Shown piece by piece: positions 11,323 to 61,164 of a stretch of 64,000 bases of DNA; the stretch's first letter is position 1, and each line of letters opens with the position of its first letter. The DNA comes from Pseudarthrobacter sp. NIBRBAC000502770 (lineage in GTDB: Bacteria > Actinomycetota > Actinomycetes > Actinomycetales > Micrococcaceae). The stretch is from the NCBI RefSeq assembly GCF_006517815.1, contig NZ_CP041197.1, positions 1 to 64,000 on the forward strand, in the 5' to 3' direction. The position numbers and the translations under genes are program-made. The notes under the pieces were generated by a model. That model ran no database searches. It saw nothing but the letters and a program-made list of their open reading frames with translations, and was not told where the DNA came from.

Positions 11323-12621
11323 TTAGGCGGCTTTGACGAGGGGGAGTTCGTCCCAGTGGGTGGTGTAGCGGGGGGAGAGCATGTCGCGTTTCATGGTCCA
11401 GTCCGGCCCGCCCCGGATTCCGGCGTGGCCGAGGCCGATGGATCCGCGCCCGTACCGGCGGGTGACGTCTTCGAGGAGGGTTCCGACGTGGCGTTCCTCG
11501 TGGGGGTTTTCGAAGAGGGCCAGGGGTGCCTGGTTGCCGGTGGGCCGGAGGTCAGTGACCATGATGCCGGCCCGGGCGTACCGGATGCCCTCGCAGATGC
11601 GGGGCAGGAGTGCGTGGGCTGCCTTGGTGAGCAGGACCGGGTCCGCGGTGGGCATCGGCAGGGGCACGCACACCGAGGGGTAGGCGGTGTCTTTGGGGTT
11701 GAAGTGTGAAGTGCCGGCGAAGGCGGTGAGGACCTTGGCCTGGAGGCCGTGTTTGGCCAGCCGGGCCGAGGCCTGCTGGCCGTAGACGCTCATGACCTGC
11801 CGCATTCCCGCCGCGGTGGTGATGGGGGTGGCGAAGGAGCGGGAGAAGATGAGCTGGTCCCGGCCGATCCGTTCTTCCTCCATCGGGATGCAGGGGGTTC
11901 CCTGGAGTTCCAGGACGGTGCGCATCATGACGACGGAGAAGCGGTCCCGGATCATCACCGGATCGGCCCGGGACAGGTCATGGATGGAGTGGATCCCTAG
12001 GGCGTTGAGGCGTTTGGTCAGGCGGGTGGCGACGCCCCAGATCTCGATCACGGACAGGCGGCGCATCAGGGCTTCCCTGTCGGCTGCGGGCACGGAGTCC
12101 CAGTGGCAGACCCCGTCGAACGCCGGGTTGTTCTTGGCCCATTTGTTCGCCAGTTTCGCCAGGGTCTTGGTCCCGGCGATCCCGACGCAGACAGGTACCC
12201 CGACGTTACGCCGCACAGCTGTCTTCATGTCCCGGCCCAGGGCCAGGAGTTCTCCCGGGGCGCCTTTGACGCCGAGGAAGGCCTCGTCGATGCTGTAGAC
12301 CTCCAGCCAGGCGCTGTACCGGCCGAGCAGTTCCATCACGCGGGCGCTGATGTCGCCGTAGAGCTCGTAGTTACTGGAGAGGGCGACGAGTCCCCATTGT
12401 TTGGCCCGCGGAGCGAGTTTGAACCACGGCTCACCCATGGGGATCCCGAGGGCCTTGGCCTCGGGGGAGCGGGTGACGGCGCAGCCGTCGTTGTTGGACA
12501 GGACGATGACGGGACGGCCCTCCAGGGACGGGTTGAACGCCCGCTCGGCCGACGCGTAGAAGCAGTTCACATCCACATGCGCGATCTGCGGCATGTGCCG
12601 CATCGTGGCCGGCTTAGACAT
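11323..12621 (-). CDS. umuC: UmuC-like Y-family translesion DNA polymerase
   Basis: A 432-residue error-prone polymerase. It contains the metal-binding motif HVDVNCFYASAER, the dNTP-site block VLSNNDGCAVTRS, and the catalytic acidic pair in VYSIDEAFL, then two helix-hairpin-helix-like segments and a little-finger domain. It overlaps the end of umuD by 8 nt. An internal ATG (MPQIAHVD, 12597) is a possible alternative start. Together with cleaved UmuD' it would bypass DNA lesions; a plasmid copy can raise mutation rates of the host. Confidence 0.93.
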   Translation of the reverse strand: MSKPATMRHMPQIAHVDVNCFYASAERAFNPSLEGRPVIVLSNNDGCAVTRSPEAKALGIPMGEPWFKLAPRAKQWGLVALSSNYELYGDISARVMELLGRYSAWLEVYSIDEAFLGVKGAPGELLALGRDMKTAVRRNVGVPVCVGIAGTKTLAKLANKWAKNNPAFDGVCHWDSVPAADREALMRRLSVIEIWGVATRLTKRLNALGIHSIHDLSRADPVMIRDRFSVVMMRTVLELQGTPCIPMEEERIGRDQLIFSRSFATPITTAAGMRQVMSVYGQQASARLAKHGLQAKVLTAFAGTSHFNPKDTAYPSVCVPLPMPTADPVLLTKAAHALLPRICEGIRYARAGIMVTDLRPTGNQAPLALFENPHEERHVGTLLEDVTRRYGRGSIGLGHAGIRGGPDWTMKRDMLSPRYTTHWDELPLVKAA

Positions 12622-13045
12622 GATGCAAGCAGCGGGTCGCGACGCCCCAGATGACCAGATCCGCGACCGACGGGACCAGGATGTCCGGGTACGCCGGATT
12701 CTCCGCCTGCAGCACCACCCCGGTTCCCGTGACCCGCAGCCGCTTGATGGTCAGCTCCCCGTCCAGGACGGCGATGACCACGGACCCGTCCTTGGGTTCC
12801 AGAGCGCGGTTCACGATCAGTTCGTCGCCGTCGCTGATGCCGGCGCCCTCCATCGACTCCCCGGACACCCTCACGACATAGGTGCTGGTGATGTCCTTGA
12901 TCAGGTGCTCGTTCAGATCGATCCGGCCGTCAAAATAGTCCTGCGCCGGCGACGGATACCCGGCCGCGACGGGTACCGGAGAAATCAGCACCGACAACAA
13001 CGACACGCCCGCATCTATCACACGGGGACCGACAACAACGCCCAC
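12614..13045 (-). CDS. umuD: UmuD-like S24 self-cleaving mutagenesis protein
   Basis: A 143-residue LexA/UmuD-fold protein. The Ser-Lys dyad is visible as VSGESMEG (Ser64) and GELTIKRL (Lys101), and an Ala-Gly cleavage site lies near residues 28-29 (VAAGYP). There is no DNA-binding domain, so it is UmuD rather than a repressor. The GTG start at 13045 is preceded by AAAGG at a good distance and by a LexA box at 13059-13074. It heads the umuDC-ligase operon. Confidence 0.92.
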   Translation of the reverse strand: MGVVVGPRVIDAGVSLLSVLISPVPVAAGYPSPAQDYFDGRIDLNEHLIKDITSTYVVRVSGESMEGAGISDGDELIVNRALEPKDGSVVIAVLDGELTIKRLRVTGTGVVLQAENPAYPDILVPSVADLVIWGVATRCLHHV

Positions 13046-13393: not shown

Positions 13394-14062
13394 TCAGCGC
13401 AGGGGAGGGCGGCCGCGGGTCCGACCGGTCTGCCACCCGGGAGCTGCATTGTTCAGGAGCTTGACCTTCAGAGGATCGAGTTCGCCGCGGCGGCATTTGT
13501 ACCGCTGCGCGTGGACCCAGACCCCGAGGGTATGTTCACGCTCTGACTCGTAATCGTGGTGGCGTGGCCAGTCGTTGCCTTCCAACCGGAACTCCACGAG
13601 CTCGGCCAGCCGCTCGTACCACCGCGCCTCGTCCTCCACCTTCCGGCGGTTTTCGACCCACCCCGGCACCTGGGCAAGGCCGTCGCTGTAGGCCGGGTCC
13701 AGGGTCCCCTGGGCTGCTTCGCGCCGGCGTACGGACAGCCAACGGGCCATTGACCGTTCGCTCCGGTCGCCGGACCGGCCGTCAGGCAGCCGGCCTTCGG
13801 CTGAGGCCCAGGCGATGACCTCTTCCATCCGGGCGAGATCCGTGGGGGAGCGGGATGGAACAGGTCCGGCGCCGGCCGCTGCCTGGTGCTCGGCCTCCAG
13901 TCCCGGATCCTGGCGGCGGGCGATGGCCAGGTGGTATCCGACAGCGGCCGGCGGCACGCGCACGAGGTCAGCGATGCGTTGCCGGCTCAGTCCGAGCCGG
14001 TACATCAGCACCCATTCGGCGTCAGGAGCGCGCCGCAACCGCCTGTCCATAATGAACCCCAT
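13394..14062 (-). CDS. Protein with two helicase-associated (HA) domains
   Basis: A 222-residue protein (from the ATG at 14062). An N-terminal helix-turn-helix-like segment (YRLGLSRQRIADLVRVPPAAV) is followed by two helicase-associated repeats, each ending in a PGW-type turn (VPGW, APGW) and containing W-x-x-R/QR motifs (MARWLSVRRREAAQGTLD, LGVWVHAQRYKCRRGELD). HA domains are common in multiple copies in Arthrobacter genomes and plasmids and are thought to bind nucleic acid. No helicase motor is present. Function unknown. Confidence 0.75.
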   Translation of the reverse strand: MGFIMDRRLRRAPDAEWVLMYRLGLSRQRIADLVRVPPAAVGYHLAIARRQDPGLEAEHQAAAGAGPVPSRSPTDLARMEEVIAWASAEGRLPDGRSGDRSERSMARWLSVRRREAAQGTLDPAYSDGLAQVPGWVENRRKVEDEARWYERLAELVEFRLEGNDWPRHHDYESEREHTLGVWVHAQRYKCRRGELDPLKVKLLNNAAPGWQTGRTRGRPPLR

Positions 14063-14116
14063 CCTGCCACGGCCCTCCCGGACAGGGGCAGGCACCGCGG
14101 CCCTACAGACACTGCT

Positions 14117-14485
14117 TTCGGGCGTCCGCTGGCGCGGCCGGCTGTTGGGTCCAGTGCCTCCGTCGCAGGGCTCCGGATGCCCTGGCCCTGTCTTGTCTAC
14201 GACGTCTTTTGGTTGCTGTCCTTCGGATTCTAGGCGTCCGCTCCACCCCGTCTAGCCCCTCCTTCGTCGGGGCCTGCGGTGCAGGAAATGTCCCTCCGGC
14301 GCTCCTGCGTCGCTGATTTCCTTGAGGGAATTTCCTGCACCTTGCCCTGCGGGTAGACAGGGCTCCGTCGGCCGCCGAGCAAGCAAGCTTGCCAGCAACC
14401 AAAAAACAACGGGGGGAGAAGGGGGCGCTGGCCGGTCACCTAAGCCGCCCCACCCACCGGAATCCTCTGCAAAAGGAGCAACACC
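14117..14485 (+). ncRNA. Repeated structured 5' leader, copy 1
   Basis: First of three near-identical ~370-nt segments, each ending exactly at a start codon after AAAAGGAGCAACACC. Hairpins visible here: CAGGGC/GCCCTG; GCCCC/GGGGC (14255-14273); an 18-bp stem with one bulge formed by GGTGCAGGAAAT plus TCCCTC (14278-14296) with GAGGGA plus ATTTCCTGCACC (14324-14341); GCCCTG/CAGGGC (14344-14363); GCAAGC/GCTTGC (14379-14392). A 12-bp long-range pair TTTTGGTTGCTG (14207-14218) with CAGCAACCAAAA (14393-14404) would close them into a multibranch domain. Stems are conserved between copies while loops vary. Role as an mRNA control element is inferred. Confidence 0.7.
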
Positions 14486-15463
14486 ATGCTTGAAAAGATC
14501 AACCTCACCGGTCCCGCCGACCTGCTGGCCACCATCCCGCACCTGCTGGGCATCACGCCCTCGGAATCGTTCGTCGTCCTCACCGCCCACGCCGGCGCGC
14601 TCGGCGCGACCCTGCGGGTGGACGCACCCGAACACGTCGAGCCGGTCAACTACGCGCAGACGCTGACCAGCCACGCCGCCAACGATGAGAAGGCCACGGC
14701 GTCCTACCTCGTCGTCTACACCGACGAGAACCAGGACAGCTACCCCTACGCCGCGCACGTCGCCGCACTGGTGTCCGAGCTGGCCGCAGCCCGGATGCCC
14801 GTGCGGCACGTCTGGCTCGTGACCTCCACTCACTGGACGGAGTTCGGCACGGACGAGGAGCGCCCGCTGGAGCAAATCACCGACAGCCACGCCAACGCGA
14901 CGTTTACCTTCTTCGGCAGCGCCACGGACATCGACGTCTACAACCCCGCCCTGCTGGGCACCTGGGCCATGCCGGTGGAAGCACCCGAAGGCACCGAAGC
15001 AGACATCCAGAAAGCATGCGCCGCGTGGGCGGCCGTGCTGGACAGCACCGGAACCCCGGACAGCGAAACGGCCCGGGACCTTGCGGGAGCGTTCCAGCAC
15101 AAGATGGTCCGGGACTTCCTGTTCCGCGAGACCATCACCACCCAGAACGGCAACTTCGCCGACGTCATCCTCGGTACCTTCACCGGACGCCCCGACTGGA
15201 ACCGGGTGGACCGGGCCCAGGCCATCGCGTTCGAACTGATGAAGGCAGTCCCGGCAGGCCAGCGCGCACCGATGCTGACCCTGATGGGGTGGCTGGAATG
15301 GCTCAAAGGCAACGGCACCCAAGCCAGCCGGTACCTCAAGCACGCGGACACGGACGCCCCCGGGTTCCGGCTGGCAGGGCTGCTGCAGGAATTGATCAAC
15401 CGCGGCTCAGTCGCAGAGGTCGCTCGCGACCCGGAAACCTCCTACCAGCGCCACAACAACTAA
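14486..15463 (+). CDS. DUF4192 family protein
   Basis: A 325-residue protein recognised as DUF4192 by its start, GPADLLATIPHLLGITPSES, and the following FVVLTAHAGALGATLRVD block. This actinobacterial family is common on plasmids and near phage-like loci and has no established function. Translation starts behind the repeated leader (copy 1). A strong intrinsic terminator follows at 15472. No membrane helix or catalytic motif is evident. Confidence 0.85.
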   Translation: MLEKINLTGPADLLATIPHLLGITPSESFVVLTAHAGALGATLRVDAPEHVEPVNYAQTLTSHAANDEKATASYLVVYTDENQDSYPYAAHVAALVSELAAARMPVRHVWLVTSTHWTEFGTDEERPLEQITDSHANATFTFFGSATDIDVYNPALLGTWAMPVEAPEGTEADIQKACAAWAAVLDSTGTPDSETARDLAGAFQHKMVRDFLFRETITTQNGNFADVILGTFTGRPDWNRVDRAQAIAFELMKAVPAGQRAPMLTLMGWLEWLKGNGTQASRYLKHADTDAPGFRLAGLLQELINRGSVAEVARDPETSYQRHNN

Positions 15464-15471
15464 ACGGACAG

Positions 15472-15512
15472 GGCCGGACCGGGATCACCAAGAGATCCCG
15501 GTCCGGCCTTTT
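15472..15512 (+). terminator. Intrinsic terminator after the DUF4192 gene
   Basis: GGCCGGACCGGGATC (15472-15486) pairs perfectly with GATCCCGGTCCGGCC (15494-15508) around a 7-nt loop, followed by TTTT. This is a classic factor-independent terminator and isolates the leader-DUF4192 unit from what follows. Confidence 0.9.
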
Positions 15513-15652
15513 GCCGGTGGCGGGGCGGCCTCCCCCGCTGCGCTCCGCCGGCCGCCGGACGCTCGCGCGGGCGCAGCTCAGAACCCAGCTAGCGTGTAGA
15601 AACCACGGCTACAGTGAACCCAGGAACACTGCACCGACCAGGAAGCGTGAGC

Positions 15653-15802
15653 ATGGGAACTGACTACATCCTGACCGACGACGACAAGCCGGCGGCCGAG
15701 CCCAGCCTGGCTGAAGATGTCATCGAGATTCGTCTGCTCACCGCCGGCGAACCAACGGGGCCCGCGAATATCGGCTGGGCCCAGGAACACCCCAACCTCT
15801 AA
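15653..15802 (+). CDS. Small acidic protein, 49 residues
   Basis: The frame MGTDYILTDDDK... ends in GWAQEHPNL. AGGAAG stands 6 nt before the ATG. It is acidic, soluble and not similar to anything I recognise. The stop is 6 nt before the hairpin of the small-RNA-like element at 15809, so that element could be the 3' end of this mRNA. It could also be a chance frame; coding support is moderate. Confidence 0.45.
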   Translation: MGTDYILTDDDKPAAEPSLAEDVIEIRLLTAGEPTGPANIGWAQEHPNL

Positions 15803-15808
15803 CGCCCA

Positions 15809-15888
15809 GGCAGCGGGACGCTGCCCACCCAAATTTCCTTTGCAGAGGGAAACGGCGAAAGGCCGGCACTGCGGTGCCGGCCTTTCCT
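15809..15888 (+). ncRNA. Small-RNA-like element, copy 1 (anti-leader loop plus terminator)
   Basis: Three parts in order: hairpin GGCAGCGggaCGCTGCC (15809-15825); the 19-nt motif TTTCCTTTGCAGAGGGAAA (15834-15852), itself a TTTCC/GGAAA stem-loop; and the perfect terminator AAAGGCCGGCAC-tgcg-GTGCCGGCCTTT (15858-15885). A second locus with the same order but different flanking hairpin sequences lies at 19183. The motif can pair with the Shine-Dalgarno region of the three repeated leaders (12 bp with one bulged A). A trans-acting regulatory RNA is inferred; it may instead be only a 3' UTR with its terminator. Confidence 0.55.
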
Positions 15889-16133
15889 CATGCCCGGGTT
15901 TGTGCCAACAACCGCCGCCACAACAGGAACGCCGCCAGGGCATTCAGGGCGGTAATGAAGACATCGCCAGCTGCCGGCCGGGCAATCACAAGATCAACGA
16001 CAACCAGCGCCAGCGACCCCGCCGCGGCAACTGTGAACACCACGGCCAGGACCCAGAGGACCCGCGGGGAATCCAGCACAGAACCGCGCCCCGCACGGCC
16101 CGGGCGGTTATCACGCGGAACCGGCTCAGTCAT
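15888..16133 (-). CDS. Small two-helix membrane protein
   Basis: An 81-residue protein with a charged N-terminus and two hydrophobic segments (VLWVLAVVFTVAAAGSLALV and VFITALNALAAFLLWRRLL). GGGTGAGGGC precedes the ATG. It runs leftward between two of the repeated cassettes and ends at the bidirectional terminator hairpin 15858-15885. No family recognised. Confidence 0.5.
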   Translation of the reverse strand: MTEPVPRDNRPGRAGRGSVLDSPRVLWVLAVVFTVAAAGSLALVVVDLVIARPAAGDVFITALNALAAFLLWRRLLAQTRA

Positions 16134-16153
16134 GCCCTCACCCTACTCAGGAA

Positions 16154-16548
16154 GGGCATGCTCGCAGGGCTCGCACCCATTCGGGCGTCCGCTGGCGCGG
16201 CCGGCTGTTGGGTCCAGTGCTGTCCGTCGCAGGGCTCCGGCCCGCCCTGGCCCTGTCTTGTCTACGACGTCTTTTGGTTGCTGTCCTTCGGATTCTAGGC
16301 GTCCGCTCCACCCCGTCTAGCCCCTCCTTCGTCGGGGCCTGCGGTGCAGGAAATGTCCCTCCGGCGCTCCTGCGTCGCTGATTTCCTTGAGGGAATTTCC
16401 TGCACCTTGCCCTGCGGGTAGACAGGGCTCCGTCGGCCGCCGAGCAAGCGAGCTTGCCAGCAACCAAAAAACAACGGGGGGAGCGGGAAGCTGGCCGGTG
16501 ACCTGAGCCGCCCCACCCACCGGAATCCTCTGCAAAAGGAGCAACACC
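16154..16548 (+). ncRNA. Repeated structured 5' leader, copy 2
   Basis: Nearly identical to copy 1 from 16180 onward (TTCGGGCGTCC) to the start codon at 16549, and sharing 26 further upstream bases (from 16154) with copy 3. All stems of copy 1 are kept. Differences fall mostly in loops: the CAGGGC/GCCCTG hairpin has loop tccggccc instead of tccggat, and GCAAGC/GCTTGC has loop ga instead of aa. The same ribosome-binding segment TCCTCTGCAAAAGGAGC is present, in which TCCT and AGGA can form a small hairpin that would hide the Shine-Dalgarno bases. Confidence 0.7.
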
Positions 16549-16977
16549 ATGAACGCAGTAACCACTATGACGGTGACCACCCGGGACACCGGGGAAACCA
16601 TCGACGGCGTGACCGTGCTGGGCGATTACCACGAGAACGGCGGCTACGACTGGATGGAACTCATCGGTGAACACGGCTGGGCCGTCATCCCCAGCTGGGG
16701 GAGTGACGGCTGGGACCTTGGCAATTGGCCCTACGTCATGGTCGCCGCGACCCGCACCGCTGACAGCATCGGAAACCTGTTCGGCGTCGCCACCTACTGC
16801 GAGGGAGACGTGAGCTGCACGTTCTACCGGACCAAGGCCCGCCAATGGGACGCGATCAGCGAACAGGCGTTCTTCCAGTGGAAGAACGGCCAGGCCCACG
16901 GCCCGGACGACCTGCCCGAAGCCGCCGCGGAATTGCCGAGCCGGTACCGGATGCCGTACATGGCCAACGTCGCCTAA
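16549..16977 (+). CDS. Unknown soluble protein behind leader copy 2
   Basis: A 142-residue protein, rich in Trp, Tyr and Gly (GGYDWMELIGEHGWAVIPSWGSDGWDLGNWPY). No membrane segment or recognised catalytic motif. It has a good start directly after the leader's ribosome-binding site. The sequence looks like a compact mixed alpha/beta domain typical of plasmid accessory or anti-restriction-like proteins, but I cannot name a family. Expression is presumably controlled together with the other two leader-bearing genes. Confidence 0.7.
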   Translation: MNAVTTMTVTTRDTGETIDGVTVLGDYHENGGYDWMELIGEHGWAVIPSWGSDGWDLGNWPYVMVAATRTADSIGNLFGVATYCEGDVSCTFYRTKARQWDAISEQAFFQWKNGQAHGPDDLPEAAAELPSRYRMPYMANVA

Positions 16978-16990
16978 ACCTCCTGAAACT

Positions 16991-17017
16991 TTGCCGGGCG
17001 GAACCACCGCCCGGCAA
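16991..17017 (+). terminator. Hairpin downstream of the 16549 gene
   Basis: TTGCCGGGCGG (16991-17001) pairs with CCGCCCGGCAA (17007-17017) around the loop aacca. There is no T-run, so termination strength is uncertain. The next 190 bases up to leader copy 3 hold no gene that I can support. Confidence 0.5.
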
Positions 17018-17210
17018 GGTGACGCCCTCCTCACTAATGGACCGGGACCGGCCGAAAGGTTCGGGCGGTCCGCCGCCGGTGGTTGGCTTCCGTCGCTGGT
17101 CACCGGCGGCGCACCGCCGTTTCGGTGAAGGACCGCCGGAGGAACAGGCAGCGGGCCGGCCAGGCTAGGAGCGGGGCCGGCATGGGCGGATCCAGGGGAG
17201 ACGAAGCCAG

Positions 17211-17612
17211 GGGCATGCTCGCAGGGCTCGCACCCATTCGGGCGTCCGCTGGCGCGGCCGGCTGTGGGTCCAGTGCTGTCCGTCGCAGGGCTCCGGCCAG
17301 CCCTGGCCCTGTCTTGTCTACGACGTCTTTTGGTTGCTGTCCTCCGGATTCTAGGCGTCCGCTCCACCCCGTCTAGCCCCGGTTCCGCAAGCTCCACCGG
17401 GGCCTGCGGGGCAGGAAATGTCCCTCCGGCGCTCCTGCGTCGCTGATTTCCTCCGGGAATTTCCTTCACCTTGCCCTGCGGGTAGACAGGGCTCCGTCGG
17501 CCGCCGAGCAAGCGAGCTTGCCAGCAACCAAAAAACAACGGGGGAGAGGGGAAGCTGGCCGGTCACCTGAGCCGCCCCACCCACCGGAATCCTCTGCAAA
17601 AGGAGCAACACC
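17211..17612 (+). ncRNA. Repeated structured 5' leader, copy 3
   Basis: Third copy, matching copy 2 from 17211 to the start codon at 17613. It is the most diverged: the GCCCC/GGGGC stem has become GCCCCGG/CCGGGGC with an unrelated loop (ttccgcaagctcca), a change that keeps and lengthens the pairing. The large central stem keeps 10 of 12 outer pairs. The long-range pair TTTTGGTTGCTG/CAGCAACCAAAA and the Shine-Dalgarno hairpin are unchanged. The compensated change supports function as a folded RNA. Confidence 0.7.
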
Positions 17613-18956
17613 ATGAACACCACACCCACCCTCGAAATGCTCAACCCGGCCACCCTGACCGTGGACATCAACGTCCGCAAAGACGCCGCCCTGACCCCCG
17701 ATTTCATTGCCAGCATCAAAGAGCACGGCGTGATGGAACCCGTCATCGCCCACCGCAAGGACGACGGGACCGTGCACGTCCTGATGGGACAGCGCCGCAC
17801 CCGCGCCGCCGTTGAAGCCGGACGCACCAGCATCCCGGTGATGATCATCGAGTCCCCCGAGGAAGCAGAACGGATCGTGACCCAGGTCGTGGAGAACATC
17901 CAGCGCGCCGAACTGACCGAAGCGGACGAGGCCGACGCCTACCACCAGCTGTCCCTGATCGGCGTCTCAGCCGCCGCGATCGCCAAGAAAACCGGACGCA
18001 CCAAGACCATCGTGGAAGGGGCGCTGAAAGCCAAATCCTCGACCGCCGGATCCACCGCCCTGGGCAAGGGATACACCATCGACGAAGCGCTCATCATGGC
18101 CGAATTTGAAGGGGACCAGGACGCCACGGAGGAATTAGAGTCCGTGATCGCGGACGAACCCGATCAGCTCCTGCACGTCGCGCAGATGCTCCGGGACCGC
18201 CGCGACCGCGCCGCCGCCCTCGCCGCACTCATCGCCGAGCTCGAGGCGGAGGGCAAGACCATCGTGGAGGACGCCGGGCACTACTCCAACGAAGAGAACC
18301 TGTACGTCTCGGCCGCGAAGCGGGCCGACGGGAAACCGGCCACCGACGAGGACGCCAACGCCTACCTGATCAGCACCGACTACCGGGGCCAGCACAACGC
18401 CCAGCCCGTCATCACCGGCTGGCAGGACCGGGGCTTCACCCCGAAGTACGAACGCTACGACGGCGGCACGCAGGCCCAGAAAGGCCCGATGACCGAGGAA
18501 CAGAAAGCCGAGCGGAAAACCCTGATCGCCAATAACCGCGAGATGGAAAGCGCCACGAAGGTCAGGCGTGAATTCGTGAAGACCCTGCTGTCGCGCAAGA
18601 CCGCGCCGAAGGGCTGGCAGTACTTCACCGTCCACGCCATCACCCACGACCCCGAAACCGCCAGCGGCTACGACGGCAAAGTCGCCACCGAGATGATCGG
18701 GGCCAAGACCGGAGAGGACACCGATCGGTGGGGCTGGAACCCGTTGCGGGACCACACCGCCAAAACCACCACACGCCCAGAATTCTCCCTCATCGCCCTG
18801 ATCTGCGCCGGGTATGAAAAGACCCTCCAGAAAGACTCATGGCGGTCCGCCGAGAAGCGGCACTTCCACTACCTGAACCAGCTCACCACATGGGGATACA
18901 CCGCCAGCGCCGTCGAGCAGATCATCATCGACAATCACACCACCGACACCGAGTAA
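17613..18956 (+). CDS. ParB/Spo0J-like nuclease-domain protein
   Basis: A 447-residue protein. The N-terminal ParB/Srx domain shows LNPATLTVDINVRKD, the GQRRTRAAVEAG box (equivalent to GERRxRA) and VVENIQRAELTEADEA, followed by a helix-turn-helix (SAAAIAKKTGRTKTIVEGALKA). The C-terminal 250 residues are not recognised. It is far from parA and has its own leader, so it is more likely an accessory DNA-binding or CTP-switch protein than the partition ParB; plasmid ParB-like proteins of this kind are widespread with unknown roles. Confidence 0.8.
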   Translation: MNTTPTLEMLNPATLTVDINVRKDAALTPDFIASIKEHGVMEPVIAHRKDDGTVHVLMGQRRTRAAVEAGRTSIPVMIIESPEEAERIVTQVVENIQRAELTEADEADAYHQLSLIGVSAAAIAKKTGRTKTIVEGALKAKSSTAGSTALGKGYTIDEALIMAEFEGDQDATEELESVIADEPDQLLHVAQMLRDRRDRAAALAALIAELEAEGKTIVEDAGHYSNEENLYVSAAKRADGKPATDEDANAYLISTDYRGQHNAQPVITGWQDRGFTPKYERYDGGTQAQKGPMTEEQKAERKTLIANNREMESATKVRREFVKTLLSRKTAPKGWQYFTVHAITHDPETASGYDGKVATEMIGAKTGEDTDRWGWNPLRDHTAKTTTRPEFSLIALICAGYEKTLQKDSWRSAEKRHFHYLNQLTTWGYTASAVEQIIIDNHTTDTE

Positions 18957-18968
18957 CCGGACAGTGAA

Positions 18969-19000
18969 CCGGGCGGCTGGCCCCAGGGGCAGCCGCCCGG
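18969..19000 (+). terminator. Hairpin after the ParB-like gene
   Basis: CCGGGCGGCTG (18969-18979) and CAGCCGCCCGG (18990-19000) form an 11-bp stem, with GCCCC/GGGGC extending it inward. It starts 13 nt after the stop codon. No T-run follows, so it may be a terminator or an mRNA-stabilising structure. Confidence 0.6.
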
Positions 19001-19182
19001 CCCACTCACCCCGGCAAGGGCCAGGAACCTTCCAGAAGTGGGGCGGTCCGTCGCCCCGGGCGAACCACAGCAGCCACTCACCAGCGACGGACCGCCATTA
19101 ACCGCGACCACGCGCCGGCGCACCACCACCCCCGCGGGACCAGGAACAACGAGGTACCAGGCCGCGGCAGCACCACAAAACA

Positions 19183-19260
19183 GTTCAGCTAAGCTGAACC
19201 ACATATTTCCTTTGCAGAGGGAAAACCAGGCAGGGCCGGCTCACGCCGGCCCTGCCTTCT
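19183..19260 (+). ncRNA. Small-RNA-like element, copy 2 (anti-leader loop plus terminator)
   Basis: Same architecture as the element at 15809: a hairpin (GTTCAGCT-a-AGCTGAAC, 19183-19199), a short spacer, the identical motif TTTCCTTTGCAGAGGGAAA (19206-19224), then a terminator stem AGGCAGGGCCGGC/GCCGGCCCTGCCT (19228-19257) followed by TCTTA. Only the central motif is sequence-identical between the two loci; both flanking hairpins differ in sequence but keep their positions. The surrounding 19001-19306 contains no supported gene. Regulatory RNA function is inferred. Confidence 0.55.
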
Positions 19261-19306
19261 TAACGTCACGCACGGACCTTCCGGAATGCCCTCGGCGGTC
19301 CGCGGA

Positions 19307-20680
19307 TTAGGCCAGGAGTCCGTCGCTCTTCCATTTCAAGGCATAAGCCAGGTATGGCTCCAGGATGTCGATTTCGCCGTGCCTGCGGGAGTTGTATTCG
19401 AACAAAGGCTGATGTTTGTTGTTTGGCAGGGACTCATCCGGTGCTGCTGCTGGTAGCTCGTCATCCTCGGTTTCAAGGTCATCCGCGTGTTGAGCGCTCA
19501 GCGTTCTGGAGGAGATCTTAGTGAGTTGGTTCAGCTTGGTAACGAGGTTGAGTCGCGCGTATTCATCGTTCGAACCGTTTGTCAGCAGCTGTGTGACGAT
19601 AGGTTTCAAGTCGCGAACCTTCGTCGAAAGGACCGGGCCGCCGGCCTTTAGGGCAGCGAAGATTAGCTGGTATCCGTCCAATTTGCGGCCGTCCTGCAAG
19701 TCAAATACCCGACGGTCCTGACCTCGTACCGGAGGTCCGAAGACCAAGGTCTCGAGCCATTCGTAGGCCCTCTCATCCACCTGTTCCTCGAAGAAATCGG
19801 ACCACGTCGCAGGAGCCTGAAGGGGCGTGGGCTGCTGTTGCTCTACCTTGATGCCGTTGACGTCGCGGACAAAGCTGAGGCACAGCGCCTGCATGAGCTG
19901 AGGGCTACCGTAACTTTCACGGGCTAGCATTTGTCCGTATGCGCCGCTGGGGTCCAGGAGATTGAGTTTGTGGAAACCGAGCTTAGCTATCTCTTCTAGC
20001 TCAGAGAGTGTCCATCCCTCCAGCGTTGCCACTTTGTTCCGACCGATCATGTCCTGGATTTGGGTCACTGCTTCGTTGCGGTGATGAGGCAATGTGATGA
20101 GTACGCCAGTGGCGCCATTTGCGCAGAGTCCCTTGAGGCTGGCGACAACCTGAGCGCGCACGGAGGGCGGCATGTAGTGGAAGTCATCGATGATGATTAC
20201 AGCAGATTGATCGACTTCGTTCAGGGCGCGAATGGCCGCCGTGACAGCTTGGTCTGCGGGAATTTCGGCGGACCAACCCTTGGCAATAATGCGCGAGTGC
20301 TCGCCGCCAATTTGGCTTTCGGCGCTACCAAGCAGGAGGTCGAGCTTGGCTTTGAATCCCCATTTCGAGGTGTCACCATTTGTCTTGTTGCCATTTTGGG
20401 ACGTTGGTATGTCGAGTTGGGCCGCTAGACGTACCCAGAAATCCTTGGCATCGGTGATCCAGCTGCCGTCAATGTAAAAGGCATCGGGCACAGTCCTGCG
20501 AACCAATACCGTTTTGCCCATTTTCGTGGGGCCTACCACAGGGATGAGGTATCCCTTCTGGTGCACATATTGGCGGATCCTGGCGACCTGGGGAGCATTT
20601 TCCCGTTCGACATGTGTGTATTCGGAGTCGAGCCCAGGCACAAAGACCTTATCGACAGCTAGCAAGGGTTTTGAGGTCAT
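19307..20680 (-). CDS. P-loop (STAND/AAA-like) ATPase of unknown role
   Basis: A 457-residue protein. The Walker A motif is VVGPTKMGKT (near residue 53) and the Walker B motif is SAVIIIDDFHY (near 165), typical of AAA/STAND-type ATPases. The C-terminal 200 residues may hold winged-helix segments and a charged acidic linker. Base composition is clearly lower in GC than the neighbouring genes. The next gene upstream, in the same direction 182 bp away, encodes a membrane coiled-coil protein of similar composition, so the two may be a transferred unit, possibly a defence or stress system (inference). Confidence 0.7.
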   Translation of the reverse strand: MTSKPLLAVDKVFVPGLDSEYTHVERENAPQVARIRQYVHQKGYLIPVVGPTKMGKTVLVRRTVPDAFYIDGSWITDAKDFWVRLAAQLDIPTSQNGNKTNGDTSKWGFKAKLDLLLGSAESQIGGEHSRIIAKGWSAEIPADQAVTAAIRALNEVDQSAVIIIDDFHYMPPSVRAQVVASLKGLCANGATGVLITLPHHRNEAVTQIQDMIGRNKVATLEGWTLSELEEIAKLGFHKLNLLDPSGAYGQMLARESYGSPQLMQALCLSFVRDVNGIKVEQQQPTPLQAPATWSDFFEEQVDERAYEWLETLVFGPPVRGQDRRVFDLQDGRKLDGYQLIFAALKAGGPVLSTKVRDLKPIVTQLLTNGSNDEYARLNLVTKLNQLTKISSRTLSAQHADDLETEDDELPAAAPDESLPNNKHQPLFEYNSRRHGEIDILEPYLAYALKWKSDGLLA

Positions 20681-35876: not shown

Positions 35877-36272
35877 GTGAGTGAAGGCAACGGCTTCGCC
35901 GGCTGGAAGTCCCGTCGTCGGCGGGCGAATGTTGACGGCGGCCGGATGCACCGTCACGAGGTCAAGGTCAGTCCGGAAGAGGAAGCCAAGCTTCTTGCCC
36001 TGGCGGAGAAGCACCGCGTGACCATCCCGCGGCTTTTGATTGAGGCTGCGCTCAGCGAGGGAACGGAGAACCCGTCGGAGCGGCGTGATCAGTTCATGCA
36101 GCTCTCTACGCTGCAGCGTCTCGTCGGGACCGTGGCGAACAACATCAACCAGATCGCCAAGCACGCGAATGCGACGGGGGAAGTGCCCGCAGAAGCTGCC
36201 GCTTCCATCGCCCACGCGCGGGCTGTCATTATCCGAATCGACCGTCAGCTCGCCGACATGGCCGGGCGGTAG
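35877..36272 (+). CDS. mobC: MobC-like mobilisation accessory protein
   Basis: A 131-residue protein. A basic N-terminus (WKSRRRRANVDGG) precedes a ribbon-helix-helix-like segment (HRHEVKVSPEEEAKLLALAEKHRVTIPRLLIEAAL) and the typical MobC C-terminal helix (LVGTVANNINQIAKHANATGEVP). It would help the relaxase open oriT. The GTG at 35877 was chosen for its upstream GGGCGGGAC; the frame extends to a GTG at 35823. The relaxase starts 8 nt downstream. Confidence 0.8.
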   Translation: MSEGNGFAGWKSRRRRANVDGGRMHRHEVKVSPEEEAKLLALAEKHRVTIPRLLIEAALSEGTENPSERRDQFMQLSTLQRLVGTVANNINQIAKHANATGEVPAEAAASIAHARAVIIRIDRQLADMAGR

Positions 36273-36279
36273 TTGCTCC

Positions 36280-37884
36280 GTGATTCCGAACATTACCCAG
36301 GGCGACCGCATGGCGGGTCTGATGATCTACCTCGCGGGCCCGGGACGTGCAAACGAACACGAAGAACCGCACCTCGTTGCCGGCGATTCGGCGCTGATGG
36401 CCTGGCACGACGACAACGAGCTGAACCGCGACGCTGCCCTCGATATTGCCAACGCCCTGGACCGGGCCAAGCAGTTTTTCGAAACCGAGGTAGACGGCGG
36501 ACACGTCTTCCACTGCTCACTGAGTTTGGCCGCAGAAGAAGGCCAGCTCAGCGAGGAGCGGTGGAGTGCCATCGCCAACGACTTCATGAAGGAACTGGAC
36601 TTCACCGAGGACGGCGGAAGAGCCCCCGCCCGGTGGGTCGCGGTCCGTCACGGACTGAGCAAAAACGGCAACGACCACATCCACATCGTGGCCAGCATGG
36701 TCCGGGACGACGGCACCAAATGGAACAGCTGGAAGAGTAAATACAAGTCCCAGCAAGCTGCCAGGACACTGGAGAAGAAGTACGGGCTGAACGCTGTCGG
36801 GACCCTGCGCGCCGAGCGCGGATTCACCCCGGCTGAACAGTCCAAAGCCATCCGCCACGGACTGACGGAAGTTGAGCGGCACAGCCTCGCCCGCAAGGTG
36901 CGCGTCTGCGCCGCAGCATCGACAGATGAGGCAGAGTTTGTCCGCCGGGCACGCCAGGAGGGCATGCTCGTGCGCCCCCGCTACGCGGCCGGCCGCACCG
37001 ACGTCGTGACCGGGTACTCCGTGGCCGAACGCCCCCGGAAGGGCGAGCGTGCCGTCTGGTTCGGCGGGAACTCCCTGGGTCGTGACCTCGCCCTGCCCAA
37101 GCTCCGGGCCGAGTGGGAAAGCACCCCGGAGTCAGCGGCGTCCGCTGTCGCGGAATGGAACGCCGCAGCACGCAACCGCAGACCGGCAAGCCCCGGCCGG
37201 GAGACCCTGCAGCCGTCGGCCGAGCTGTGGAACAAGTACGCCAACGACGTCCAGGCACTGCGCGAGAAGCTGGCCACGACCCCGTACGGTGACCACGTTG
37301 CCTGGGCGCAGGCAGCCCGCGAAACATCGGCAGCTTTCGGTGCATGGTCCAGACGCATCGAACCCACTCCCGGGCCGCTGGCGGACGCCGCACGGGAGCT
37401 GTCCAAATCAGCCCAGCTCCGGCGCTACCCGTCACGGCCGGCAGTTGCTTTGCCGTCGGCACGCGGGGCCACCATGATCCTCCTGGCCGCGACGTCCAAG
37501 AGCGACCGGGCCGCCTATGCTCTCATGTTCCGGCAGCTCGCCCAGACCGCCCGTGCCATCCACGACATGCACAAGGCCACCGATGACCTCCGCCGGGTCC
37601 GGGGCCTCTCCGCAGCCGTGGTCGCCGCCGGCAGGGTCGTTGAAGCCAGCGCCACCGCCCAAACCATCACGGCGCGGCCTCTGACCATGGAAACACTGCG
37701 GGAGCAGCACCCGGAAGCCAGCGAAGAAGCCCTCCGGGCACGGCTCATCGCGGAACGGTCACGGGGCGGCTCGCCCGTCCCCACGACACTCACTAAACCG
37801 GACCGAACACTGCAGCAGGCCGGGTCCATCCGGCCCGAAGAGCCGAACCGAGACCAGCATCCGAATCCAGGCATCGAGCGATAG
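36280..37884 (+). CDS. MOBP-type relaxase (VirD2/TraI-like nuclease)
   Basis: A 534-residue relaxase that nicks oriT and pilots the strand into the recipient. The N-terminus VIPNITQGDRMAGLMIYLAGPG is typical of actinobacterial relaxases, and the metal-binding histidine motif is NGNDHIHIVASM (near residue 140), with a candidate catalytic Tyr17. The C-terminal half is Ala/Arg-rich and helical. The GTG start at 36280 follows mobC by 7 nt. It presumably works with the coupling protein encoded at 57806. Confidence 0.88.
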   Translation: MIPNITQGDRMAGLMIYLAGPGRANEHEEPHLVAGDSALMAWHDDNELNRDAALDIANALDRAKQFFETEVDGGHVFHCSLSLAAEEGQLSEERWSAIANDFMKELDFTEDGGRAPARWVAVRHGLSKNGNDHIHIVASMVRDDGTKWNSWKSKYKSQQAARTLEKKYGLNAVGTLRAERGFTPAEQSKAIRHGLTEVERHSLARKVRVCAAASTDEAEFVRRARQEGMLVRPRYAAGRTDVVTGYSVAERPRKGERAVWFGGNSLGRDLALPKLRAEWESTPESAASAVAEWNAAARNRRPASPGRETLQPSAELWNKYANDVQALREKLATTPYGDHVAWAQAARETSAAFGAWSRRIEPTPGPLADAARELSKSAQLRRYPSRPAVALPSARGATMILLAATSKSDRAAYALMFRQLAQTARAIHDMHKATDDLRRVRGLSAAVVAAGRVVEASATAQTITARPLTMETLREQHPEASEEALRARLIAERSRGGSPVPTTLTKPDRTLQQAGSIRPEEPNRDQHPNPGIER

Positions 37885-57380: not shown

Positions 57381-57809
57381 TCAGTCGAAGATCCCTGCTT
57401 CGGGTATGACGTGGGGCAGTGCTGCCTTCTCCGCTGCGAGAGGCTTGTGCCCGTCGTAGGCGCATTTCTTGAACGGTCCTTCTGTGTCCATGAGGATGCG
57501 CATGTGGGGGTCGGCGTGGTTCAGCCACCAGGTGCTGACCCCGAGGGCCGGCTCCAGCCGTAGGTGTTCCCAGGCCCGCCAGATTGCCTCCATGCGGATC
57601 AGGGCTTCGGGGTGTTTGTACCATTCGGGGCACCAGGCGAACGTTGCGCCTTCGTTGACTTCCCGGACGTAGGACTGGGCCAGTAGCTCGGCGAAGAACT
57701 CCACTGCACTGGAGTAGACGAGCTCCGCTTCGGATTCGGCATGGCTGTGGCCGCTGCTTGCGGACTGGGCCTCTTCGTCGCCGAACGCGTCGCCGAACTC
57801 CTCGCTCAT
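57381..57809 (-). CDS. DUF4913 conjugation-associated protein
   Basis: A 142-residue protein with the DUF4913 core: FAWCPEWYKHPEALIRMEAIWRAWEHLRLEP and DPHMRILMDTEGPFKKC. The family accompanies actinobacterial conjugation genes without known function. Its start overlaps the coupling-protein stop (ATGA), so it is the end of the leftward transfer operon within this window. Confidence 0.85.
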   Translation of the reverse strand: MSEEFGDAFGDEEAQSASSGHSHAESEAELVYSSAVEFFAELLAQSYVREVNEGATFAWCPEWYKHPEALIRMEAIWRAWEHLRLEPALGVSTWWLNHADPHMRILMDTEGPFKKCAYDGHKPLAAEKAALPHVIPEAGIFD

Positions 57810-59575
57810 GCGGTGTCCCCGTCCGTCCAGGGATTGTGTGCCGCAACGGTCACGGGTTCACCATCGACGTTCACTTCAGTGGCGAGGGAGTCTTTGACTT
57901 TCTGGGCGTGGGGGCCGTTCATCCATGGGATGGTTTCGATCATGGTGGCCGGGGCGCCGGAGGTGAGCAGGATGGCCCGGAACCTGGGCAGTGCTGTCAG
58001 GTCGGCGACGGAGAGGATCTCGTCTTTGTTTTCCTGCCGGGAGGAGGAGGATCCGGTTTTGCTGTGGCTGCGGGAGACGTTGATGTAGCTGTATTGGCCG
58101 ATGAGGCGGGAGAGTTCATCGAGGTAGCCGACTTCGGAGACGCCGCCGCCGTAGATTTTCACGTTCGACGCGGACCAGAGTTTCCGCATGCCTTCCAGGG
58201 ACCAGACCTCCACGCCCTGGGACCAGGACTGCAGGATGGTCATGAGGATGATCCCGCGGGAGCCGTAGTGGCTGTACTGGTCCGGCAGTGCCTTCCAGCG
58301 GCAGACGTTCGCTGCCTCATCGAGGATGCCGAGCAGCGGTGTTGCGAGCCGGCCGCCGGGCTGGGAGGTGGCGTACTTTTCGGCCGCTTCCACGACGGCG
58401 ACGGTCAGGGCGGTGACGAGGGGGCCGGCGGTGCCGACGCCTTCGCGGGAGAGGCTGTAGAGGGTGCCGTTGCCTCGCACGAAGTCCTCGGGGACGAACT
58501 GCGGCCGCGGGTCGGTGTCCACTGTCGTGTCGCGCAGGGGCGTGACCCATTGGCTGACCTCGCGGTCGGTCAGGCAGGAAACCATTTGCCGGGCGGTGCC
58601 GTAGACGCCGGCCCGCTGCTTTTCCGGTTCGCGGATGTGGCCTATCACCATGTCCGAGAGCAGGTCATACCCTGCGGTCCTCAGCAGTTCTGCGGGGGCG
58701 TCGTCGTGCGGGCGGGTCAGCCAGGTGTAGACCTGTGTGACCGGGGCGGAGTCGAGTGAGGCGGCGAGCAGGAAGGCTTTGAGCAGGTTCTGCCCTGCCG
58801 GGTCGAAGTAGGCATCGGGTTTGGTCCCGGGTTCACGGGAGCCGTTGGCGAAGTGCTGTGCCAGGTTCCCGGCCGTGGCTTCGTTCTTCACGTAGGAGAG
58901 CGGGTTCCACCACCAGGTGGGTTCCTCTTCCGCGACGGCCTGCGGGTCAAAGACCCACACAGCGCCGGCTTCAGTCCGGATCGGGCGGGTGACGTCCACG
59001 ATGTCGCGCTTGTTCGAGGTGGCAATCACCGCGCCGGGTGCATCCAGGATTGCCGGGACGGCGTAGGAGGTGGTCTTCATCGTTCGGGGACCGGCGATGA
59101 GGATCAGCATGTCCTCCCAGGACGCCCACAGCGGGCGCTTCCCGGCAACGCTGCGGCCAAGCCGCACTCCGGTGGAGTTCTCCACGCCGAGACGCACAGC
59201 GGTGGCCGTGGCCCCCTTGGTGCCCAGATGATCGAGGTCTTTCCCGCGGCCCATGTGGACGGCGGCCTTATCCACCCGGGTGCGCTTGTGCGCTGTTCGG
59301 GAGCGGACCACCAGCACTGTCACTGTCAGGGAAATCAATACTCCGAGGAGCACGCAGGCGACGATGGTGGACTGGACGGGCCAGGGCACCCGGCCCTTGG
59401 CCAGGCCTGCCACCAGATCAATCGGGTGGGCCGGGGGCGAGGCAAGGCCGGCCATCCAGGATCCGAGATGTGCCGAGACCCAGCTGCCGCCCCCAATGAC
59501 GACAGCTGCGCCGATGGCCAGCCAGATCCCCAACGCGTCGCCGAGCCCTGTGCCTTTACGGTTCGGGGCACTCAT
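57806..59575 (-). CDS. Type IV coupling protein (TraG/VirD4 family)
   Basis: A 589-residue protein with two N-terminal membrane helices (about 11-33 and 60-82) and a VirD4-like ATPase. Walker A is deviant, LIAGPRTMKTTSY, and Walker B is LLGILDEAANVC. It couples the relaxosome to the secretion channel. The ATG at 59575 overlaps the stop of the VirB4-like gene (ATGA). The GPRTMKTT form of the P-loop is common in actinobacterial TraG-like proteins. Confidence 0.9.
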   Translation of the reverse strand: MSAPNRKGTGLGDALGIWLAIGAAVVIGGGSWVSAHLGSWMAGLASPPAHPIDLVAGLAKGRVPWPVQSTIVACVLLGVLISLTVTVLVVRSRTAHKRTRVDKAAVHMGRGKDLDHLGTKGATATAVRLGVENSTGVRLGRSVAGKRPLWASWEDMLILIAGPRTMKTTSYAVPAILDAPGAVIATSNKRDIVDVTRPIRTEAGAVWVFDPQAVAEEEPTWWWNPLSYVKNEATAGNLAQHFANGSREPGTKPDAYFDPAGQNLLKAFLLAASLDSAPVTQVYTWLTRPHDDAPAELLRTAGYDLLSDMVIGHIREPEKQRAGVYGTARQMVSCLTDREVSQWVTPLRDTTVDTDPRPQFVPEDFVRGNGTLYSLSREGVGTAGPLVTALTVAVVEAAEKYATSQPGGRLATPLLGILDEAANVCRWKALPDQYSHYGSRGIILMTILQSWSQGVEVWSLEGMRKLWSASNVKIYGGGVSEVGYLDELSRLIGQYSYINVSRSHSKTGSSSSRQENKDEILSVADLTALPRFRAILLTSGAPATMIETIPWMNGPHAQKVKDSLATEVNVDGEPVTVAAHNPWTDGDTA

Positions 59576-61164
59576 GCTGCACCCTCTTCCTGGACCGGAG
59601 CGGTGGCTTCCAGCAGGGATTCTGCCGGAGCGTGCCAGCGCTTGTTGGTGTCGTTCAGGGAGGCTTCGATGGACGTGAGGCCGATCTGGACGGGGATGCC
59701 GGGGCGGCCGCCGACCTTGATGAGGAATTTCCCGCGTCCGGGAGGTTCGACGTCGCCGCCGCGGGAGTCCCATGCGGGCGGGTCCTGCCAGGAGATGAGC
59801 TTTTGCTGTTCCTGCCGTGAGAGTGGGATCGCTGCGGTCAGCAGCGGCATTTCGGAGGCGGGAAGCCCGCCGCAGATGACCATGCCGGAGCGTTCGACGA
59901 AGCCGCGGGCCTTCATCCGGTCCTCTTCTGCCGGGAGCGCGAGCAGGTCGGACATGGTGTGGGAAATCATGACTTGGCCGACGCCGACTGAGCGGTTGAG
60001 GCGGGTCAGGGCGTCCACCCGGTCCACCATGCCCTTGCCGGCGCGCAGTGCCCGCCAGAGCTCGTCCAGGACGACGAAGTAGTTCCGCCGCGGTTCCAGC
60101 CCGGCGTCGGCGAGGGCGTTGGCGACGTTGACGGTGCCGAAGCCGTAGGACCAGCAGGCCAGCAGCACTGCGGCCTGCAGGTCCGTTTCTGTCTCATCGA
60201 TGCTGGAGACGTCAAAGACGACGGCCCGGTCGCGCCGCATCGGGTTCGTGGTGTGCCGGGAGAAGATTTCCCCGAGTTTCCCGCCGCCGGTCAGCCCGAG
60301 CAAGGTTGCTTCCAGTGCACGGGTTTCCTGCAGATAGACGGTCATGTCCCCGCGGTCCAGCGCGACCTGGCGCAGCTCGTCCGGGGCGGCGGTGATGACG
60401 TCGAGGAGATCTTTCAGGACCGGGACACCGTCGAAGGAGTCATCGAGGACGCGCAGGGCGCGGTCCAAAATGGTCTGTTCCTGATCGGTGGGCGGGTTGT
60501 TCCGGCTGATCGTGATGAGGGAAACGACCATGTTCAGGCGCCGGCCGTGGGCATCGGCCCGGACCCGGACGGCCGCTTCGTGGTGTCCGCGCTCCTCGAG
60601 GAGTTGGGCGACCTCAATGGCCTGTCCCGGGTCGAGGATGTTCAGGTAGCCGCGGCCGCGGCCGAGTTCGATGACCTGCCCGCCGACGGCGCTAATGGCG
60701 TCCACGTGTTCGCCCTTGAGGTCCCCGAGCACGAGCGGGTGGACGCCCTGGCCGGAGAGGCCTAGCATCATGCGGCGCACGAGCGTGGATTTGCCCAGGC
60801 CGGGTTTGCCGAGGATGAACGCGGAGGGGTTGGAAATCAGGTGGGCGCGCTGGAACCAGCTGATCGGGTCACAGCAGACTGTGGCCTGGGTTTCCTCGTG
60901 CCGGCCCAGCGGGACGCCGATCATGGGCGAGGACGTGCCCGAGGAAAATGGCCACAGCCCGCAGACCTGCACCGTGGTCCCACGGTATTCACGCACCGCC
61001 GGGACCAGGGCCGCAGCCCCTCCCCCGCGTCCGCCCCAGCCACGGGAGCCGGGGACACGCACCCGGGCCGGACGAGCCGTGGACGCGCGGCCGTCGCGGG
61101 CTTCGGATTCCACACCATCAAGGAGCGGATTCTTCTTCTTCTTCCCTCGAAAGAGCTTCTGCAT
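59572..61164 (-). CDS. VirB4-like conjugation ATPase
   Basis: A 530-residue ATPase with a basic start (KKKKNPLL), Walker A LGKPGLGKSTLVRRMM (near residue 120) and Walker B YFVVLDELWRALRAG. This matches the C-terminal motor of VirB4/TraE-type proteins that energise T4SS assembly; the N-terminal membrane-associated part of VirB4 is supplied by the separate SCO6880-like protein upstream. ATG start overlaps the previous stop by one base. Confidence 0.88.
   Translation of the reverse strand: MQKLFRGKKKKNPLLDGVESEARDGRASTARPARVRVPGSRGWGGRGGGAAALVPAVREYRGTTVQVCGLWPFSSGTSSPMIGVPLGRHEETQATVCCDPISWFQRAHLISNPSAFILGKPGLGKSTLVRRMMLGLSGQGVHPLVLGDLKGEHVDAISAVGGQVIELGRGRGYLNILDPGQAIEVAQLLEERGHHEAAVRVRADAHGRRLNMVVSLITISRNNPPTDQEQTILDRALRVLDDSFDGVPVLKDLLDVITAAPDELRQVALDRGDMTVYLQETRALEATLLGLTGGGKLGEIFSRHTTNPMRRDRAVVFDVSSIDETETDLQAAVLLACWSYGFGTVNVANALADAGLEPRRNYFVVLDELWRALRAGKGMVDRVDALTRLNRSVGVGQVMISHTMSDLLALPAEEDRMKARGFVERSGMVICGGLPASEMPLLTAAIPLSRQEQQKLISWQDPPAWDSRGGDVEPPGRGKFLIKVGGRPGIPVQIGLTSIEASLNDTNKRWHAPAESLLEATAPVQEEGAA

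Follow-up and report, generated by a model that had tools for sequence, protein, structure and literature searches.

The question raised by the locus analysed here is whether a plasmid may control several of its genes together through short RNAs encoded apart from them. The locus lies in the first 64,000 nt of contig NZ_CP041197.1 of Pseudarthrobacter sp. NIBRBAC000502770, a stretch that we call the window, in which an initial annotation had pointed to a 19-nt motif, present twice and complementary to the Shine–Dalgarno (SD) region of three gene leaders. The analyses presented here argue that trans-acting antisense RNAs blocking the translation of leading-region genes (DUF4192, ParB-like, DprA) are the best reading of this arrangement, and from the sequence comparisons we put its probability, covering transcription, trans action and repression together, at about 0.85. 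What the sequences show directly is that terminator-linked elements come in two kinds, that their targets lie at the SD, that element and target change together, and that predicted duplexes cover the SD.

The motif and its targets in the window

The motif, TTTCCTTTGCAGAGGGAAA, is found exactly at 15834–15852 and 19206–19224 (both +); with up to three mismatches allowed, no further match occurs in the 64-kb window (chance mean 0.01), and in the 4.48-Mb genome the motif is limited to these same two sites, in line with the two copies first noticed. Its target, CCTCTGCAAAAGG(AG), lies exactly at 14464, 16527 and 17591 (all +), immediately ahead of the start codons of the genes for a DUF4192 protein, a 142-aa protein and a ParB-like protein, each time at the end of one of three leaders of approximately 370 nt that are near copies of one another. 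Searched genome-wide with up to one mismatch, CCTCTGCAAAAGGAG gave these three sites as its sole matches, all exact; the reversed-pattern control gave four genome matches at the same threshold, so that one-mismatch matches alone carry little meaning. In the predicted pairing CCUCUGCAAA joins UUUGCAGAGG over 10 bp, followed by a bulged A and then by GGA(G) with UUUCC, and the complementarity to all three leaders with one bulged A, as originally proposed, is exact at every site.

Both motif copies and all three targets are carried by one 74,326-bp contig, a plasmid, on which the elements are encoded away from the targets and not opposite them; a cis-encoded plasmid antisense RNA of the CopA/FinP type was rejected on these positions. 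A known Rfam family was likewise rejected, since the whole 64-kb window gave no Rfam match and the region 14050–19330 none above the gathering threshold, the best sub-threshold match (Thr_leader, E=0.18) being taken as chance.

Co-change of leaders and elements

From the window's genus 198 genomes were drawn, and leader DNA was matched in 130 of them, weak matches included. The window motif was present at up to two mismatches in 43/198 genomes (the reversed-pattern control matched once, in genome G048) and the window's 15-nt SD sequence at up to one mismatch in 55/198, a search in which the reversed control also matches many genomes and some matches are the antisense strand of elements, so that only exact matches beside a leader should be counted. 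Since leader DNA is found in 130 genomes and the window's SD sequence in fewer, many leaders have another SD-proximal sequence.

A first set of 60 stretches was taken from 58 of the 130 leader-positive genomes, mostly at top-ranked leader matches. BLAST to the conserved core listed 142 leaders with SD and start codon, those of the window included, and eight without; elements were found with a hidden Markov model (HMM) whose training used terminator-linked elements and took no account of complementarity (three weaker elements were added by hand, seven false hits were left out of the training, and one hit, on the plus strand of stretch L143, was left out of the leader–element counts). One element or more was present in the fetched stretch for 137 leaders, and on that same stretch an exact complement of at least 8 nt exists for 125 of them, of at least 9 nt for 113 and of at least 10 nt for 90. 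When the SD was excluded and identical patterns were merged, 64/77 segments reached at least 8 nt, against a shuffled mean of 22.8 and a maximum of 38 (10,000 shuffles among plasmids). Adding later-fetched elements, on stretches chosen partly for unmatched leaders and entering this count but neither of the two preceding ones, gave 71/79 segments against a shuffled mean of 23.6 and a maximum of 39, with a mean run of 9.1 versus 6.3; here L116 was mis-cut as unmatched, its true segment CCTCGGAAAAGG matching its element by eye, and the counts were left unchanged.

Thus the sequence immediately ahead of the SD varies among the leaders of related plasmids, and its antisense is carried by terminator-linked elements of the same plasmid, leader/element codes being for example CCUUGGGCAAA/UUUGCCCAAGG, CUCGGACAA/UUGUCCGAG, UUCGGCAAAA/UUUUGCCGAA and CCUCAGCAAA/UUUGCUGAGG. 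Once two mis-cut leaders and those of a different kind are set aside, the unmatched leaders came from nine genomes (G075, G152, G143, G024, G141, G159, G151, G138 and G088), and when more sequence was fetched the expected element was found on the same contig in five (G075, G152, G143, G024 and G141), in G075 with the new code CCCCGCAAA/TTTGCGGGG.

The same relation extends beyond the genus. A family sample of 295 genomes gave leader core matches in 90, weak ones included, and a second set of 35 stretches was taken from 27 genomes, one stretch (L225, genome G092) being from the window's genus; candidate elements were called by a code-blind rule (T3-4C[CT] ... G[GA]A, with a hairpin scoring at least 30). 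Over all 35 stretches a complement of at least 8 nt was present on the own stretch for 28/54 leader segments and with another's for 72/1,836; collapsed by genome and with G092 dropped, the figures were 24/47 segments and 45/1,175 non-own combinations (shuffled mean 2.7, maximum 11; 10,000 shuffles). Of genomes having both a leader segment and a candidate element, 18/21 show a match. Further codes were CTCGCCAAAGGA/TCCTTTGGCGAG, CCTTCGCAC/GTGCGAAGG, CCTCGTGAC/GTCACGAGG, CCACAACAA/TTGTTGTGG, CGTCACCAAGG/CCTTGGTGACG and CCTACCAAG/CTTGGTAGG, and both sets together hold 118 unique leader–element pairs (run of at least 7 nt) in 78 loci, with approximately 16 clearly different cores by manual count. 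Counts from a covariance model (124/198 in the genus, 61/295 in the family) were not used as prevalence, their tail near 1e-5 being probably chance.

The initial annotation had asked whether complementarity is maintained in related plasmids, and it is kept while the sequence changes, within the genus (64/77 versus 22.8) and beyond it (24/47 versus 2.7). Chance was rejected, considering that the motif is absent elsewhere at up to three mismatches and that the shuffled controls were far exceeded in both samples. Leaders are alike within a plasmid and the plasmids are related, as functionless inherited inverted repeats would also have it; the partners, however, change together against different flanks, and we regard the probability of mere inheritance as negligible.

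Predicted duplexes and the probable direction of control

In the best same-plasmid duplexes below −15 kcal/mol the entire GGA is paired in 115/134 cases, and SD occlusion is therefore the natural outcome; judged from the window sites, the 125/137 leaders and these duplexes together, target complementarity covers or abuts the ribosome-binding site (RBS). An opposite outcome, in which the SD is freed because the antisense RNA occupies the 5′ arm together with the loop of a leader hairpin, would fit the position of the exact complement core upstream of GGA and the ability, by eye, of the bases flanking the core to pair in leaders. Against such activation, the SD itself is paired in the 115 duplexes just mentioned and the leader hairpin of the window is weak, and we consider it unlikely.

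Nine plasmids carry two codes, each with its own matching element (the criterion for selection was a run of at least 8 nt with the own element and at most 7 nt with the crossed one; L120 and L137 rely on later-fetched elements). Their mean run is 10.0 for 18 cognate and 5.2 for 18 crossed combinations, a contrast that is partly by construction, only the energies being freely comparable. Past the exact pairing, the next position is G·U in 52/112 deduplicated but non-independent cases; wobbles at the pairing edge would be expected if RNAs pair, but not if the sites act as DNA.

These features bear on the suggestion that both sites are operators of one DNA-binding regulator, placed in opposite orientation and co-changing with its specificity. 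The motif is indeed near-palindromic, and a strand-blind DNA site would appear as inverted copies. However, the target abuts the SD in the listed leaders, and the element stands directly before a GC hairpin, in the position of a small RNA or 3′ untranslated region (3′UTR) and antisense to the leader (an orientation partly set by the search model); as many regulators would be needed as there are codes (approximately 16, with nine plasmids carrying two each), and pairing often extends through G·U. We hence argue against operators as a very improbable explanation, and in favour of trans-acting RNAs aimed at several leaders, as first proposed, which best fit the co-changing codes and the nine two-code plasmids.

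Two kinds of element

Each element has a stable GC hairpin behind its motif (RNA folding z −6.6 for 19202–19262 and z −4.6 for 15804–15892), and the features of the window are collected in Table 1. The elements fall into two types. A TAnnnT box lies 9–12 nt upstream of the motif in 37/81 elements, that at 19206 included, and exactly 10 nt before TTTC in 32 of the 37; this fixed spacing of a −10-like box suggests that the RNA begins at (A)GATTTCC. Inspection of the TAnnnT elements by eye revealed no conserved −35, and a promoter scan called no plus-strand promoter at the elements of the window. Most of the other 44/81 elements, including that at 15834, have a CAGC/GCTG-type hairpin in place of TAnnnT, and 33 of 40 such type-1 elements examined lie 32–41 nt behind a conserved open reading frame (ORF) of approximately 49 codons in the same direction, six having no such ORF and one a spurious ORF.

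The initial annotation had placed the motif between a variable hairpin and a strong terminator at both loci. The terminator stands as a stable stem, and its strength beyond the stem does not, no plus-strand terminator having been called. Of the variable hairpins, the one at 15809–15825 holds as a 3′UTR hairpin, the element at 15834 being read as the 3′ end of the small-ORF mRNA, which may be both coding and antisense. The one at 19190 was set aside as a general part of the RNA and is more probably a promoter palindrome, because TAnnnT keeps a constant spacing whereas the palindrome is variable; since TAnnnT itself defined the class, this argument depends on the constant spacing. The palindrome overlaps the −10-like box, and the RNA at 19206 therefore probably begins at the motif.

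This anatomy also bears on whether each element does no more than pair, as a 3′UTR, with the 5′ leader of the mRNA to which it belongs. Element 2 does follow parB and element 1 follows an ORF; yet no leader match lies directly ahead of the ORF of element 1, which is separated from the DUF4192 gene by a long hairpin near 15472–15510 (seen by eye, not called by the scan), element 2 has a −10-like box of its own, and the leaders outnumber the elements (three versus two in the window). Action purely in cis is accordingly held to be highly improbable.

Two smaller observations concern the elements. The protein preceding most type-1 elements is EYILTEDD...ELxLLTAGxxxGPV-like, and its window copy (15653–15802) is without a Pfam match. 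On the minus strand of L114 (reverse-complement index 10479) lies an element that looks to be decaying: its −10 box is altered (CTCCGCT) and no terminator hairpin can be seen after it.

Table 1. Leaders, genes and candidate antisense elements of the window
Feature	Coordinates	Strand	Remark
Leader 1, conserved repeat of ~370 nt ahead of DUF4192 gene	14117..14485	+	target CCTCTGCAAAAGG at 14464-14476
DUF4192 gene behind leader 1	14486..15463	+	PF13830 E=2.6e-33
Conserved 49-aa ORF, element 1 behind it	15653..15802	+	ORF family ahead of 33/40 type-1 elements examined
Type-1 upstream hairpin GGCAGC/GCTGCC	15809..15825	+	sequence
Element 1, putative antisense motif	15834..15852	+	exact TTTCCTTTGCAGAGGGAAA
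Terminator-like GC hairpin of element 1, weak U-tract	15857..15886	+	not called as + terminator
Leader 2	16180..16548	+	target at 16527-16539
Gene behind leader 2, 142-aa protein	16549..16977	+	without Pfam match
Leader 3	17237..17612	+	target at 17591-17603
ParB-like gene behind leader 3	17613..18956	+	PF02195 E=1.7e-11
Palindrome GTTCAGCTAAGCTGAAC with −10-like TAAGCT at 19190-19195	19183..19199	+	TAnnnT spacing class
Element 2, putative antisense motif, probably 5′ end of ~60-nt RNA	19206..19224	+	exact TTTCCTTTGCAGAGGGAAA
Terminator-like GC hairpin of element 2, weak + U-tract	19228..19257	+	scan calls terminator on − strand

Proposed mechanism and points against it

We suggest that these plasmids, conjugative ones of soil bacteria, would each encode one short antisense RNA or two, of two kinds: an RNA of approximately 60 nt with its own −10-like box, and the 3′ end of the mRNA of the 49-aa ORF. 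In each RNA a small hairpin would present UUUCC and a plasmid-specific antisense core of approximately 8–12 nt, with a terminator hairpin behind it. The RNA would pair in trans with the corresponding sequence immediately ahead of the SD in several leading-region leaders; pairing would run on through the GGA of the SD, so that translation would be blocked.

Several results weigh against this mechanism. All counts come from related sequences and are non-independent, those of G·U least independent of all. After further fetching no partner was found for the leader of G159 or the CTCGGACAA leader of G151, nor for G138 (element TTTCTTATGCAGAGG, leader CCTCAGCAAAGG), and in G088 the matching TTCCTTTGCAGAGGG is without a terminator. 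Five leaders (L098:6805, L102:9195, L107:7278, L115:8254 and L225:11558) share the core but end GAGTCGAYGAAACAAGGAG-like and without the SD hairpin; a complement scan of L098, L102, L107 and L115 gave only the leaders' own antisense strand, and the leader of L225 matched no element on its stretch. Beyond the genus, no leader reaches 8 nt in 14 of the 35 stretches (in 11 of these not even 7 nt), and nine stretches held no candidate element under the code-blind rule. Both window elements have weak U-tracts on the plus strand, where the scan recognized a terminator at neither of them; on the opposite strand it did call the hairpin of element 2 as one.

Folding and energies add to these points. 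The initial annotation had both partners showing complementary bases in loops; the window motif does fold into a hairpin, and the UCCU/AGGA hairpin of the leader is not predicted to be stable in the window (z −0.46 and +0.57). In the two-code plasmids the predicted duplex energy is −21.7 kcal/mol for cognate and −18.1 kcal/mol for crossed combinations, a poor discrimination, and 4 of 18 leaders have a crossed duplex whose predicted stability equals or exceeds that of the cognate one. Energies overlap because the SD part is common to all codes, and in such duplexes specificity would have to depend on the contiguous core.

What the proposed RNAs would be for is less secure. A role in shutting down establishment genes outside a short period after plasmid entry is possible, at somewhat below even odds. 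More tentatively still, zygotic induction based on RNA may be joined with plasmid-specific codes that act as RNA superinfection immunity, hence the diversification of codes. An established plasmid would then keep its own leading-region genes silent through its antisense RNAs, and entry into a cell without the RNA would bring a burst of leader translation until the RNA accumulates; additionally, an incoming plasmid would find its establishment genes silenced if a plasmid with the same code were already resident. Genome G096, in which two contigs (L092 and L093) carry the same leader code, argues against a strict form of such immunity or incompatibility.

Plasmid context

The window contig also has a relaxase gene (36040–37884) and a TraG/TraD gene (57806–59773). 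In three mapped plasmids (the NicSoilB4 plasmid, FB24 plasmid 2 and pSI-1) the ParB-like and DUF4192 genes, with DprA in two, lie across the presumed origin of transfer (oriT) from the relaxase gene, and the set reads toward it, oriT and the direction of transfer being assumed. Leaders are located ahead of these genes in the NicSoilB4 plasmid (L142), where the leader end at L142:12117 is the dprA start, and in FB24 plasmid 2 (L106); pSI-1 has five match places for the window's region. The same gene order and direction are found in the window, where 17 kb separate the set from the relaxase gene. The relaxase gene usually enters last in transfer, and the genes behind the leaders would therefore be leading-region genes, with the transferred strand as template.

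Relation to known systems

CopA, RNAI, FinP and Sok are cis-encoded plasmid antisense RNAs that form hairpins and control plasmid genes; unlike these, the RNA proposed here is encoded apart from its targets and would address several leaders. Asr9 and Ssr9 are small RNAs acting on the ISPpu9 transposase mRNA, which has a structured 5′UTR (PMC8450116); this likewise joins small RNAs and a structured 5′UTR in the control of a mobile-element gene, with the difference that a single transposase gene is concerned and no co-changing code family is described in that account.

The leaders themselves have a probable precedent. According to PMC10494377 and PMC6305408, Mihasan and Brandsch (2016) had reported conserved repeats 5′ of DUF4192, DprA and ParB genes in 12 Arthrobacter/Paenarthrobacter plasmids. 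Genes and plasmid group are the same as for our leaders (DUF4192 and ParB in the window, DprA in the NicSoilB4 plasmid), and by this analogy the repeats are very probably the leader side. As described in the two citing papers, no antisense partner, SD target or code is named for them, and our literature search, limited to top-ranking results and mostly without subscription papers, found no antisense RNA reported on these repeats.

The closest analogue of the leaders is EGeRS1 of pLS20-family plasmids, from a different phylum: according to the account in PMC8708921, EGeRS1 and EGeRS2 are long repeated sequences, rich in inverted repeats, that immediately precede the RBS of several establishment operons, the control mechanism of EGeRS1 being stated as unknown and EGeRS2 using a protein repressor. 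Five start regions of pLS20 inspected by eye gave no SD hairpin of this kind, antisense elements not having been searched for there. Further, Frpo of the F leading region comprises repeated folded single-stranded promoters ahead of several genes, with early transient expression (PMC9849209, PMC11541004). The likeness would lie in a repeated folded sequence ahead of presumed leading-region genes (in our three maps positions and strands fit, oriT and the direction of transfer being assumed); the difference is that Frpo is promoter control, and the word ‘antisense’ is absent from the main texts of those papers.

The claim of a new system consequently holds in part: leader repeats had been described and SD-directed antisense RNAs are a known kind, whereas a family of plasmid-specific, co-changing, trans-encoded codes that appear to be aimed at a leading-region regulon is, to our knowledge, new. 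It would offer a concrete mechanism for turning off establishment genes in actinobacterial plasmids, where that of the analogous EGeRS1 repeats is stated as unknown (PMC8708921). Moreover, approximately 16 co-changing SD-directed RNA pairs, some of them two per plasmid, form a natural set useful for studying the evolution of antisense specificity and for asking whether such specificity limits plasmid entry or the sharing of a cell.

Other features of the leaders and their neighbourhood

RNAalifold on 43 leaders gave 50 pairs, 11 with double changes, and a small covariation term (−1.29 kcal/mol); the leaders may be single-stranded DNA promoters, EGeRS1-like elements or plain 5′UTRs. Every leader of the window contains a minus-strand promoter-like pair, TAGACG-16-TAGAAT (14254–14227, 16319–16292 and 17375–17348; three found versus 0.4 expected). 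Elsewhere (L104:6558, L111:6577, L112:990, L131:6231 and L136:5387) the leader core is followed by a conserved stretch, TGTGAGTCTT...GGGACTAGCTGGCAGTGTTGATGCCGGTCGTTCTGCC..., in place of an SD, possibly another regulatory or replication element. In the NicSoilB4 plasmid two closely spaced leader-core matches at 6427 and 6554 of L142 represent a partial duplication of the 3′ part of the leader ahead of parB. Finally, a UmuC/UmuD pair (11323–13045, −) lies near the leader gene cluster of the window, and such a pair is close to the cluster in the NicSoilB4 plasmid too.

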